Shown here: positions 11,152-64,000 of the stretch, one piece after another
Numbering within the stretch: position 1 is the first letter of the stretch
Layout: every line of letters starts with the position of its first letter
Assembly: GCF_004212215.1 (NCBI RefSeq)
Contig: NZ_QVFV01000002.1
Coordinates: 1,053,528-1,117,527, forward strand
DNA length: 64,000 bases
Source of the DNA: Leptolyngbya iicbica LK
GTDB lineage: Bacteria; Cyanobacteriota; Cyanobacteriia; Phormidesmidales; Phormidesmidaceae
Reading direction: 5' to 3'
Program-made: the position numbers and the translations under genes
The notes under the pieces: model-generated
What the model was told of the DNA's origin: nothing
The model's database searches: none
The model's input: only the letters and a program-made list of their open reading frames with translations

Positions 11152-12390
11152 GTGACTGATTCGACTTCTGCTCCTGCCAATGGCTCTGCCTCGGCGTCTG
11201 CCATGAATTACGGCCCTGTGCAAGCAGTGCCGGCGACGGTGGGCAAGCCTGCCAGCGCGGCAAACCACCAGCGCGGCCGTATTGATCTGGTTGAGCAACT
11301 AGATAAGTTGCTGTCACAGCGTTCAGGCGATCGCCATCTCGTCCTGATCCAAGATTTTCCTGATCCAGACGCGCTATCTTCAGCATGGGCCTATCGCCTT
11401 ATTTGTCAGCAATATGACATCGACTGCGACATTTACTACGGCGGCACCCTGAGCCATCAAGAAAATATTGCGCTGGTGCGGCTCTCAGGTTTGCCGGCTC
11501 GACGCTGGAATCCCCAGACCAAAACTGGTCCCGACTTGAGCAAGTATCAAGCCTACGTCATGCTCGATACGCAGGGCACGACTTCCCAGTTAACCCGACA
11601 GGTCGAGGAAGCCAATCTGTCGCTGTTTTTGGTGGTCGATCACCATGCGCCACAAAAAGATATCAATGCCACCCTGATCGACGTGCGGCCCCACATTCGA
11701 GCGACGGCGACAATTCTCGCTCAATACTTACAGAGCGAAGTACTACTCACTCTCGATCGCAGCAACAGCACCCATGTGAAATGTGCCACAGCCTTGATGC
11801 ATGGTCTGCGATCAGATACCAATAACCTGATGCATGCGGCCGAAGCTGACTTTATGGCAGCGGCCTATCTAAGCAATTTTTATGATCCGCAGCTTCTGGC
11901 AGCCATCTTGCGGGCCGCCCGTTCTAAGCGGGTGATGGATGTGATTGAGCGATCGCTCCGCAACCGCACCATCCAAAATAACGTGTCCATCGCAGGGGTA
12001 GGTTACTTGCGCTATGACGATCGCGATGCCATTCCTCAAGCCGCCGATTTTCTGGTCACCGAGGAAAATATCCACACCGCAGTAGTCTACGGCATCGTGC
12101 ATGACGAAGATGAAGAGCGTGAGGTCGTCATTGGGTCTTTGCGCACCAGCAAAATCACCCTAGACCCCGACGAATTTATCAAAGAAGCCTTTGGTCAAGA
12201 TCTCGAAGGGCGATTTTTTGGCGGGGGTCGTACAACCGCCGGAGGCTTTGGGATTCCCGTCGGCTTTCTATCCGGCTTCTATGAAAACAGTGACTATAAC
12301 CGCCTAAAATGGGAGGTCTTCGATATGCAGATCAAACAAAAACTCTGGCGACTCGTCAATCCTGAAGATGGCCTCATCTCCACAGACTGA
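11152..12390 (+). CDS. DHH family phosphoesterase (NrnA-like)
   Basis: A 412-residue DHH/DHHA1 protein, likely a nano-RNA or cyclic-dinucleotide/pAp phosphoesterase. Visible motifs are DFPDPDALSSAWA (metal-binding DxD, about 68-80), MLDTQG, VVDHHAP (the DHH triad) and the C-terminal DHHA1 glycine motif GGGRTTAGGFG. The start is a GTG at 11152; a downstream ATG at 11202 would remove only the low-complexity N-terminus. Its end overlaps sixA by 23 bases, so the two are translated from one mRNA. Confidence 0.85.
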   Translation: MTDSTSAPANGSASASAMNYGPVQAVPATVGKPASAANHQRGRIDLVEQLDKLLSQRSGDRHLVLIQDFPDPDALSSAWAYRLICQQYDIDCDIYYGGTLSHQENIALVRLSGLPARRWNPQTKTGPDLSKYQAYVMLDTQGTTSQLTRQVEEANLSLFLVVDHHAPQKDINATLIDVRPHIRATATILAQYLQSEVLLTLDRSNSTHVKCATALMHGLRSDTNNLMHAAEADFMAAAYLSNFYDPQLLAAILRAARSKRVMDVIERSLRNRTIQNNVSIAGVGYLRYDDRDAIPQAADFLVTEENIHTAVVYGIVHDEDEEREVVIGSLRTSKITLDPDEFIKEAFGQDLEGRFFGGGRTTAGGFGIPVGFLSGFYENSDYNRLKWEVFDMQIKQKLWRLVNPEDGLISTD

Positions 12391-56337: not shown

Positions 56338-56496
56338 GGCAGCCGCGATAGCAGTTTGGTTTTCCATGCCGCCGCTGGCCCACCTCTATTCGTGTGGGCC
56401 AATTGCTCGTCTAGCCGATGCTCTGATGGGTTCTGAAAAAAGAAACGCCAAACAGGCTATTCAATCGTGAAACTGTCGGATAGTATAGATAAACCT

Positions 56497-56579
56497 GCGG
56501 ATGTGGCGGAATTGGTAGACGCGCTAGATTTAGGTTCTAGTGTCCTCGTGACGTGAAGGTTCAAGTCCTTTCATCCGCA
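56497..56579 (+). tRNA. tRNA-Leu (anticodon UAG), complete copy
   Basis: An 83-base leucine tRNA with the long variable arm. Acceptor GCGGATG/CATCCGC plus discriminator A, anticodon stem CTAGA/TCTAG around TTTAGGT (anticodon TAG), T-arm GAAGG TTCAAGT CCTTT. All stem pairs are intact. A near-identical second copy lies 2439 bases downstream. Confidence 0.95.
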
Positions 56580-56580
56580 T

Positions 56581-57460
56581 CCTGAATTGTGTCAGTTGCA
56601 ATTGTTCTAACTGCTACGCAACTTTTCTTCTAAAAGTATGGAACTGATGTATCTCCTTGGAGGCAAGGATTTCTGAGTTCCTGGAAGTAGCTGAGAGTAT
56701 TTGTTTAGAGTATCTTTTCCTTTATAGTGAGTAGGTTATCAATAAGGCAATCTCTAATACCTGAGATTTTTCGCTAAAACGACGGAATATTGTTCATCAG
56801 ACAGTTGCCCGTCACACGGGCGTTGTTTAAGAGTGAATCCGATCTGGACAGGGTGGTATCAGTTCATAACCTAGGAACTGATAGGTAAATTCTTTGAAGA
56901 TAATTTGCTGCCTTAGCCCATACGTCATCAATGGTGTGAACGCGAGATCGAATGGTTACGCTTTTCGCCAAATCAGAAGCTTCTTAAGACGTTACACATC
57001 TTGGGTTTCCTATCTGGGGGGCACTTTTCTCCAAATCTTTCTCTTCCATTAAAATCACTTTAATTAATAGAGCGAGGCAAAAAAGGTTAAGTTTTGCCTC
57101 GCACAAAGACATTGCCCCAATCTCGCAAAGACTCAAACAAATTGGTTCAGATCGCATCAACCGAGTCTACAATCAGATTCACTACTAAGGCGATCTCCAC
57201 ACTCCACAACCGCATAGAGTTGTCCAGCAACACCTCCATGGGCGGGTCGGTACTGCGCTGCTTAAAAGTATTCATCGAATAGAATCACTCTGATGTTTAT
57301 CTTAATGCAACTCAATTTCAAGTATCTTTCTATTAAGCAATAGAGATCCTTGTTGCTATAAAGGGAATAGTCTGAATATCCATATCCGCAATCAAATTCA
57401 ATCAAAAGATTATCACCATTTGAAAGGTAGCTGCTGATCCGCATCCGTTTTAGTGAAAAT
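56581..57460. other. non-coding stretch with several hairpins
   Basis: About 880 bases with no convincing gene. It holds inverted repeats TATCAGTTC/GAACTGATA (56857-56865 with 56875-56883), GCCCGT/ACGGGC near 56807-56821, and an 11-bp stem GCGAGGCAAAA/TTTTGCCTCGC (57072-57082 with 57092-57102). Frames at 57094-57282 (plus) and 57262-57480 (minus) have no recognisable product. Confidence 0.4.
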
Positions 57461-58636
57461 ATGAACAGAAAGATTCGCAAATCACTTGAATACTTTCATA
57501 AGGCTAAAAAAAGCCGGAATCCAGATCAAGCTATCAACTTCCTTAATCAGTCGATCAATTGTGACGAAAATCATCTAGAAGCATACTTGCTAAGAGCTAT
57601 AGAGTTAACTAAAAAAAAGAATTTCTTGGGTGCTGAACGTGACTTAGAAAAGGCTAATTTAATACAACCAAATTCAATTAGAGTCTCCTTTACTAGTATT
57701 TGGTATCTCTTTCTTCGCGATAAACATGAGCTAGTTATAGAGAAAGCTTCAGAGGTGATCGAGGAAGCTGAATCAGACGAGAAATTGATCGCACTTAATC
57801 AGATCGGGGTCAAAAAGATATTTCAGCATACTATTACCACAAAGTTAACAATAGACGAGTTTGCAACCTGTTATTTGCTTCGAGCAAAATCCTTGGCTAA
57901 ATACAAAAAATATGAATTAGGCCTAGAGGACATCCAAAAATCTCTCTTGCTAATGGTCAGCAAAGATTTAAAGATAGAGATTTCTGTCTTTAAATCTAAA
58001 GTCTTGAAATTGATGCAAGCTGAAAAAGAACAGATAGCACTCAAGAGAAAACAACAACTTCAGTCAAAACTTGATTTCAGACTAAAGAATTCCTTTACTT
58101 CTATGCCAGAAGTTATTTTTTGGGTACTATACACTTTTCTGGTAACAAGTTCAGTCACCTGTTATGTAACCTCTGAAATCTTGACAGCTTATAAATTGTT
58201 TGGACTTAGTTTCCTGATTTTTCCGCCTACCATTATTGTTTTTAGCTGGATTATTTCTAGATTTTTTCCTACCATAAATTTGATTCACTTCGAAAAGTCA
58301 GCATACTTTTATTTCTTGATTCTATTCTTTTCAGTATCTACAGTTTTGACTGTATCTTCTATGTCTGACAGCTATTTTGTCGACAATTCAGCGCCAGAGC
58401 CAACTTTAGATCGGTATGTTTCTGTTGGCATGGATTCTGATAGGGCCGTTGACAAAATCAACATGTTTGCGAAGGACAATGGTGGCGAGGTTGACTGTCG
58501 ACCAAAATCACCAATGTATTGTGAATATAAGGCGGATAATGGCAAAGTGACACTTGTGCATTTTGAGCACGAATTCACTTACTATGCAATGAATCCGAGG
58601 AAAACCAAAGTGACTCAAATAGAGTATAGATATTGA
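57461..58636 (+). CDS. orphan TPR/membrane protein in the A+T-rich insert
   Basis: A 391-residue protein: N-terminal TPR-like helices (about 5-165, with AINFLNQSINCDENHLEAYLLRAIELT-type repeats), a basic Lys/Gln-rich helix (185-205), three transmembrane helices (about 216-238, 243-270, 280-302) and an 85-residue extracytoplasmic C-terminal domain with two cysteines in CRPKSPMYC. Codon use is A/T-rich (AAA, ATT, TTT), unlike its neighbours, indicating foreign origin. No family recognised; no partner gene adjacent. Confidence 0.75.
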   Translation: MNRKIRKSLEYFHKAKKSRNPDQAINFLNQSINCDENHLEAYLLRAIELTKKKNFLGAERDLEKANLIQPNSIRVSFTSIWYLFLRDKHELVIEKASEVIEEAESDEKLIALNQIGVKKIFQHTITTKLTIDEFATCYLLRAKSLAKYKKYELGLEDIQKSLLLMVSKDLKIEISVFKSKVLKLMQAEKEQIALKRKQQLQSKLDFRLKNSFTSMPEVIFWVLYTFLVTSSVTCYVTSEILTAYKLFGLSFLIFPPTIIVFSWIISRFFPTINLIHFEKSAYFYFLILFFSVSTVLTVSSMSDSYFVDNSAPEPTLDRYVSVGMDSDRAVDKINMFAKDNGGEVDCRPKSPMYCEYKADNGKVTLVHFEHEFTYYAMNPRKTKVTQIEYRY

Positions 58637-58935
58637 TTTGCTTTGAAAGAAAGGATTTGAAGCCTCAAGGCTCTTGATCTGAGCAGCATGTTTACCTCAT
58701 TTCCTAACATTATTTTTTTCATATGTCTTTGAAATCTGTAATTTGATCAGAGATTTTTTTGTGTAACTTGAAAAGAGAAGAGTGCGTAAAAGAGGCGTCA
58801 GAAGAAAAAGAAAGTAAGAAGTGATGGCAAATAGAACAGAGTTCTTTGCGGCTTACTAATTCTGCCCGAAACTGATCGCATTAGCAGAAATAGAGACTGC
58901 TGACGATACAATGAAACTCTCAAATGCTGGACATT

Positions 58936-59018
58936 TCGGATGTGGCGGAATTGGTAGACGCGCTAGATTTAGGTTCTAGTGTCCTCGTGAAGTGAAGGTT
59001 CAAGTCCTTTCATCCGCA
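58936..59018 (+). tRNA. tRNA-Leu (anticodon UAG), second copy with acceptor mismatch
   Basis: Identical to the first copy except for C to A in the variable arm and T in place of G at position 1. Position 1 T faces C72, so the terminal acceptor pair is lost; RNase P and leucyl-tRNA synthetase may handle it poorly. It may be a degenerate att remnant or a working isodecoder. Confidence 0.75.
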
Positions 59019-59097
59019 TTTGAATTTAAAGATGCAATGGTTTTAGGGTTCCCAGATTGGGCTAGTGAACCCAGTATCGGGCTGCCGAATAAACGCT

Positions 59098-62955: not shown

Positions 62956-64000
62956 TTAACCGACAGAAGAATAGAGCGGTTCATCACGATAGCTGCTGGC
63001 CTGGCGGGTAAACATGCTGTGATAGCGTCCCTGCTGGGCCATCAGCTCATCATGGGTACCGGCTTCGAGAATCTGCCCATGCTCTAACACAATGATGCGA
63101 TCGCACAGCTTAGCCAGAGCCAAGCGATGGCTGACCACTACCGCCATGCGGCCCTGCGCGATGGACCGAAAGATGCGGTAGATTTCGTGCTCATTTTTGG
63201 GATCGAGGGCAGCGGTGGGCTCATCAAATACCAGCAGTTCCGCTTGATGGAGCCGCATCAGTGCCCGCGCGATTGCGACCCGCTGCCACTGTCCGCCAGA
63301 GAGATCGATGCCGTTTTCCAGTTGGCGACCGAGCGGCGTTTCGAGCCCATGCTTGAGCGTGTCGGTCAGGTAGGCGATGCCCGCTTCTTGCAATACCGTG
63401 TGAATGGCATCGTCATCTTGCAGATCCGCCATTTTGCCCCAACCCACATTTTCTCGCAGCGTCGCCGGAAAGCGCGCATAGTCTTGCATCACCACGGCAA
63501 TGCGCGATCGCAAGGCGGTTAAATCCAGCGTCTTCAAATCTTGCCCATGCCAGAGGATTTGGCCAACAGTGGGATCGTACAGACGCACCAACAGCTTGGC
63601 CAGAGTGGTTTTGCCCGCGCCATTTTCCCCGACCAACGCTACCATCTCTCCCGGCTGAATGTGGAACGTCAGGTTCTCTAGCACAGCGGGTTGGTCAGTA
63701 CCGGGATAGCGGAACCCCACCTGCTGAAACTGGATACCCTGGTGAGCGCGATCGCTTCCTGAGGGCAACACCCGCTGCGACCCCGAGACCAGCTGCGGCT
63801 CCAAATCCAATAATTGAAAGATGGGCGCCGTCGCCAGGGACACATCGTACAAATCGCCCGTATGGGCAATCAAAATAAAGAGACTGCGACGCAGCTGCAA
63901 AATGATACCGGTATACAGCGCCAAATCACCCACGGTAAACGTGCGATTGAGCACTCCCAGCACAACAAAAATGTAAGGGGCCGCAACGCCGAGCCCGCCC
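62956..64000 (-). CDS. ABC exporter, C-terminal half (gene continues past the window)
   Basis: At least 348 residues of a TMD-NBD fused exporter (MsbA/MdlB type). The open frame continues to the window edge, so the N-terminus is missing. The visible end of the TMD is followed by an NBD with Walker A GENGAGKTT, Q-loop MQDYARFP, signature DLSGGQWQR, Walker B LLVFDEPTAALD and the H-loop SHRLA. Substrate cannot be told from this part. Confidence 0.9.
   Translation of the reverse strand, partial: GGLGVAAPYIFVVLGVLNRTFTVGDLALYTGIILQLRRSLFILIAHTGDLYDVSLATAPIFQLLDLEPQLVSGSQRVLPSGSDRAHQGIQFQQVGFRYPGTDQPAVLENLTFHIQPGEMVALVGENGAGKTTLAKLLVRLYDPTVGQILWHGQDLKTLDLTALRSRIAVVMQDYARFPATLRENVGWGKMADLQDDDAIHTVLQEAGIAYLTDTLKHGLETPLGRQLENGIDLSGGQWQRVAIARALMRLHQAELLVFDEPTAALDPKNEHEIYRIFRSIAQGRMAVVVSHRLALAKLCDRIIVLEHGQILEAGTHDELMAQQGRYHSMFTRQASSYRDEPLYSSVG

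Follow-up and report, generated by a model that had tools for sequence, protein, structure and literature searches.

The 2.36-kb segment at 56580-58935 of the analysed window (64,000 nucleotides within a 1.57-Mb contig of a 5.7-Mb genome, G000) is, as judged by comparison with relatives, a lineage-specific insertion at a tRNA-Leu(UAG) gene, since a genome of the same genus (G004) possesses an empty site with a single tRNA and two copies were found in this genome only among the 63 family genomes searched. Insertion at a tRNA is an ordinary kind of genome change; the unusual aspect is the boundary, a repeat of nearly the whole tRNA gene. We tentatively propose, rating it somewhat short of an even chance, that the arrangement arose through a single crossover, by homologous recombination, of the resident gene with incoming DNA carrying nearly whole tRNA-Leu(UAG). 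The features of the locus, in window coordinates, are:

56455..56496, + strand: upstream region of copy 1, presumed tRNA promoter; nearly identical in G004, conserved in G005 and G012 (another genus) and alignable in G001, G002 and G003.
56497..56579, + strand: tRNA-Leu(UAG) copy 1 at the left junction, presumed working gene; called by ARAGORN, Infernal score 58.7 bits.
56580..57093, no strand: left part of the insert, A+T-rich and without a recognised gene; no DNA match in 58 relatives save via the ABC-transporter fragment, and none in plasmids or phages.
57094..57266, - strand: 173-bp decaying ABC-transporter gene fragment, approximately codons 68-125, 82% identical to the intact gene at G000:C2:1117999-1118171.
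57461..58636, + strand: orphan ORF of 391 aa, the only long ORF of the insert, with weak sub-threshold TPR-like Pfam matches at its N-terminus.
58637..58935, no strand: right part of the insert, reaching copy 2, without promoter-like sequence resembling that of copy 1.
58936..59018, + strand: tRNA-Leu(UAG) copy 2 at the right junction, probable pseudo-tRNA; nt 1 is T, facing C72, and a pair of the variable arm is disrupted; Infernal score 50.4 bits.
59019..59033, + strand: ancestral right flank of the tRNA, TTTGAATTTAAAGAT beside copy 2 and TTTGAATCAAAGAT at the G004 empty site; at most 1 of 2000 shuffles as good in the anchored test.

Both ARAGORN and Rfam RF00005 called the two tRNA-Leu(UAG) copies on the + strand, and the ends assigned by Infernal (56497-56579 and 58936-59018) make each of them 83 nt long with starts 2439 apart. 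The copies form a direct repeat that extends from tRNA nt 2 to nt 83 plus one further base and contains one internal mismatch, a C to A change in the variable arm. A preliminary description made from the sequence had reported these two 83-base repeats accurately, without mentioning that nt 1 also differs (copy 1, G; copy 2, T). Together with one tRNA copy, the segment between them accounts for ~2.44 kb of extra DNA.

The different base composition claimed in that description was confirmed, the GC content of the insert being 37.4% against 54.1% for the window, and the only sliding windows of insert size with less than 45% GC are those overlapping the insert. HIP1-type octamers point to a cyanobacterium. 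The claimed scarcity of GCGATCGC, which we take to be such an octamer, was likewise observed, as it occurs 104 times in the window (1.69 per kb outside the insert) and not once in the insert; this absence is weak by itself, 32 of the 617 insert-size windows (insert-overlapping ones included) also holding none. GC3 of the insert ORF is 36%, compared to 60% and 66% in the two flanking genes. Part of the A+T richness may reflect decay rather than origin, since the ABC-transporter fragment is a decaying pseudogene whose changes are mostly from G/C to A/T.

Concerning the outer flanks, the G004 locus (L034) is colinear with the window for both neighbour genes, a SPOR-domain-like gene to the left and a TPR gene to the right of tRNA-Leu(UAG), and its single tRNA is identical to copy 1. 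The left flank of this tRNA corresponds to that of copy 1 (0 of 2000 shuffles as good in the anchored test) and its right flank to that of copy 2 (0 of 2000 shuffles within 20 bases; a fraction of 0.0005 within 40), so that the ancestral left flank now adjoins copy 1 and the ancestral right flank adjoins copy 2. These outer flanks show that either one crossover within the tRNA repeat joined the new DNA to the resident gene, or a doubling of the tRNA came first and the copies were separated afterwards. The preliminary description had suggested integrated DNA at a tRNA site and had proposed a comparison with sister strains; the single tRNA, colinear genes and matching flanks of G004 agree with this, and conservation of both copies and the insert in relatives, named there as contrary evidence, was not seen in the genomes searched. 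An accretion hotspot, which it had also suggested, is not borne out: the G004 site is empty, and G005, which has the left neighbour gene in common with the window, carries a transposase-like ORF to the right of the same tRNA (L035:8268-12719; putatively of IS110 type, as read by eye) with the TPR gene inverted. The loci of G001-G003 have nothing in common with the window beyond the tRNA and a short sequence upstream of it. In other genera (L109 of G074, L040, L041, L067, L068 and L039), tRNA-Leu(UAG) adjoins a DnaK-like gene, named by eye, and the neighbourhood of the tRNA has thus changed in the genus of the window.

At E 1e-20, the 63 family genomes comprised this genome with two copies of tRNA-Leu(UAG), 58 with one and 4 with none, three of the latter being at most 83% complete and the other (G022) 98%. 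In a separate comparison, each of 38 other genomes matched the tRNA at E 0.001, and a second copy (90% identity, full gene) was seen in none of them, only the genome of the window having one. When compared to 59 genomes, positions 56583-57460 matched this genome and G011 only, G011 through the ABC fragment, while positions 57461-58935 matched no genome but this one. Insert DNA had no match in plasmids or phages, viral_contigs contained no exact match to the tested tRNA-Leu(UAG) stretches, and full-length tRNA matches among those listed (25 phage and 25 plasmid, with 584 and 202 further records outside the listing) were at most 89.2% identical. A donor combining an identical tRNA-Leu(UAG) with the flanks of the insert was found neither in viral_contigs, phages and plasmids nor in the relatives searched. 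G074 was considered as a donor on account of its 100% identical tRNA (most of its genus are at most 98% identical) and rejected, as its tRNA neighbours are those of other genera and it has no match to the insert.

With respect to function, the upstream region of copy 1 contains a -10-like TATAGAT that we read as part of the presumed tRNA promoter, and this region is missing before copy 2. In our reading, the acceptor end of copy 2 is also mismatched (T/C) and one pair of its variable arm is disrupted, and its Infernal score of 50.4 bits is the lowest among the 42 tRNAs matched in the genome; on these combined grounds copy 2 is probably a pseudo-tRNA.

The insert is not simply foreign because it contains a decayed piece of a native ABC-transporter gene; the label applied to it in the preliminary description is therefore correct in part only, failing for these 173 bp. 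The intact copy, named by eye from its translation, extends from window position 62956 past the end of the window to G000:C2:1118372, and lies downstream of the insert, 7.4 kb from the fragment, in the same neighbourhood and orientation. The fragment differs from it at 31 of 173 positions (15, 9 and 7 at codon positions 3, 1 and 2, respectively; 23 being G/C to A/T) and holds one in-frame stop codon, all of which marks 57094-57266 as a decaying pseudogene fragment. Since the tRNA core has changed at only 1 of 82 positions (Fisher p 3e-5), the fragment and the tRNA decayed in step only if selection or conversion intervened. A single large tandem duplication spanning the tRNA and the ABC gene was rejected on account of this very unequal decay and the lack of any remnant of the genes between. 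G004 has lost the ABC-transporter gene, and a stretch aligning as its 3' end remains there (L034 ~12220-12340), for which reason the gene probably predates the split from G004.

The genome encodes six PF00589 matches, none of which lies between the tRNA-Leu(UAG) copies, and a tyrosine integrase was not found in the insert by the PF00589 search or by the Pfam scan of its long ORF, which returned weak TPR matches only. Five fetched regions covered all six matches, and in two of the five the integrase (394 and 387 aa, respectively) adjoins a tRNA. Both of these loci look like canonical islands: tRNA-Val(GAC) (C2:1285239-1285312) is matched by a 54-bp repeat at C2:1236147 (96% over nt 27 to 6 bases past the end), bounding ~49 kb (G000:C2:1236147-1285312, L062), and tRNA-Gly(CCC) (C2:615338-615409) by a 49-bp repeat at C2:734778 (100% over nt 25 to 1 base past the end), bounding ~119 kb (G000:C2:615338-734826, L065). 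In contrast to these 3' repeats of 49-54 bp with an integrase, the Leu locus repeats nt 2-83 and has no integrase, which upholds the earlier remark that the full tRNA and not only its 3' half is repeated, and gives no support to the earlier suggestion of an integrase element that had lost its integrase.

The single crossover that we tentatively favour would have involved a circle or concatemer with nearly the whole tRNA-Leu(UAG) sequence, most likely recombining with the resident gene by ordinary homologous recombination over roughly 82 shared bases. Donor and host would need to share only the strongly conserved tRNA gene, as a result of which the repeat would end almost exactly at the ends of the gene. 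Copy 1 would have remained functional with its native promoter, while copy 2, promoterless and dispensable, would have begun to decay, as would the interior DNA with the exception of one intact orphan ORF. Since G017, of another genus, has the same 83-nt gene at 100% identity between different flanks, tRNA-Leu(UAG) can serve as homology between species, and homologous recombination is favoured because the repeat stops at the ends of the gene, this being the extent conserved between genera. The empty site in G004, the doubling of the copies here only, the confinement of the insert to this genome bar the ABC fragment, the repeat from nt 2 to the end, the lack of PF00589 inside and the degraded copy 2 all count in favour of such a crossover. 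Against it count the failure to find a donor in the collections searched and the length of the repeat, ~82 bp being short for efficient homologous recombination. Furthermore, the first base of a functional donor tRNA would be G, and that of copy 2 is T, which needs a later mutation or an already damaged donor copy, and the right flanks of the two copies are faintly alike, a likeness that the crossover does not predict.

tRNA genes are classic attB sites, and the locus could instead be the remnant of a canonical island, in which a tyrosine recombinase crossed over in the anticodon/T loop using an attP with almost the whole tRNA, the integrase and most cargo being deleted later. The order and orientation of the copies fit this course, two bona fide islands exist in the genome beside tRNA-Val(GAC) and tRNA-Gly(CCC), and T7-like cyanophages use tRNA-Leu as a general attB for integration (PMC8776855). 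We nevertheless regard it as rather unlikely, as it requires a long attP besides the loss of an integrase of which no PF00589 match is left between the copies, and as the 5' half of copy 2 is also tRNA, which integrase sites do not need and which the native islands, repeating nt 25 or 27 to the end, do not have. Alternatively, the tRNA with little flank may have been duplicated in tandem, the ABC fragment and orphan ORF being inserted or rearranged between the copies afterwards and all but the tRNAs decaying. A whole-gene repeat is the expected product of such a duplication, which would also accord with the derivation of the ABC fragment from a nearby gene of like orientation. There is indeed a weak alignment between the right flanks of the copies (anchored score 18, reached by 0.45% of 2000 shuffles), and among the flanks of 29 relatives none scores above 10 against that of copy 1; yet comparing the right flank of copy 2 with a genome of another genus gives a score of 19, so that this likeness is not decisive, and the left flanks show no significant likeness. 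Local tests between copies gave p 0.24 (left) and 0.19 (right) over 100 bases, and p 0.07 for 40 bases on the left and 0.008 for 30 on the right. Given also the unequal changes in fragment and tRNA core (31/173 against 1/82; Fisher p 3e-5) and the absence of detected remnants of intervening genes, we judge duplication before insertion to be unlikely. That both copies work, with selection maintaining the second as an additional gene brought in by the insert, is highly improbable: only two substitutions separate the copies in 83 nt and both ARAGORN and Infernal accept copy 2, but it has no promoter region, a mismatched acceptor end, a broken variable-arm pair and the lowest of 42 scores.

Islander recognises tRNA islands by the combination of an intact tRNA with a fragment and an integrase, and its filters discard candidates without an integrase as well as matches within a full-length tRNA gene (PMC4383910); on that account it would not list the Leu locus. 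The locus resembles those islands in being an insertion of more than 2 kb between direct tRNA copies, with the intact gene on one side and an empty site in a sister genome, and differs from them in its almost full-length second copy, in place of a 3' or 5' fragment, and in the absence of an integrase. Among island criteria, the direct orientation of the copies and an element of at least 2 kb are found here, whereas the far end has nt 2-83 of 83 rather than a displaced partial tRNA (3' or 5'). Defective junction (attR) tRNA fragments called as tRNA genes are described in PMC9897764, and copy 2 is likewise defective and low-scoring, an additional tRNA that gene finders accept at the distal end of inserted DNA; in the example PYG1 given there the repeat is 44 bp, unlike the whole gene from nt 2 seen here. 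Tycheposons, according to PMC10872708, are 4-200 kb elements carrying a tyrosine recombinase; like them, the Leu insert is DNA adjoining a tRNA gene in a cyanobacterium, but it measures 2.4 kb and has no tyrosine recombinase. Literature searches on full-length tRNA repeats at islands, as judged from their listings, turned up nothing pertinent apart from PMC4383910 and PMC9897764.

Taken alone, the Leu locus is of modest interest. It offers a single clearly delimited example, complete with an empty site, of inserted DNA that duplicates nearly a whole tRNA gene. It also cautions that additional tRNAs listed in genome annotations may be non-functional copies at a junction, and it shows what escapes an island finder requiring both an integrase and a partial tRNA. 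A collection of several such cases would allow the role of plain homologous recombination at tRNA genes to be tested. It is a doubtful, speculative extension that conserved tRNA genes act as ready-made homology arms, permitting capture of DNA across species by ordinary recombination without an integrase, and that insertions bracketed by full-length tRNAs form a class rejected by island-mapping software by design.

Two further candidates within the insert were dismissed, namely a DABA-DC-AT RNA match at 57135-56999, which is noise (17.4 bits against a gathering threshold of 56.1), and a third tRNA remnant (ATCCGCA at 57384 and 57437), the tRNA-insert alignment being no better than shuffles (p 0.24 to 0.995). 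The one orphan gene mentioned in the preliminary description corresponds to the 391-aa ORF at 57461-58636. Comparison with 192 genomes gave two weak matches in others and nothing more; no match was obtained in genome_contigs, viral_contigs, plasmids, phages or the PDB, PHROGs and PADLOC gave no family worth naming, and the AlphaFold model from the single sequence was useless (mean pLDDT 42.5). By our reading, the predicted protein has hydrophobic stretches at approximately residues 215-300. Inside the ORF, a minus-strand self match at 57964-57997 reveals 34 bp of self-complementary sequence (88%).
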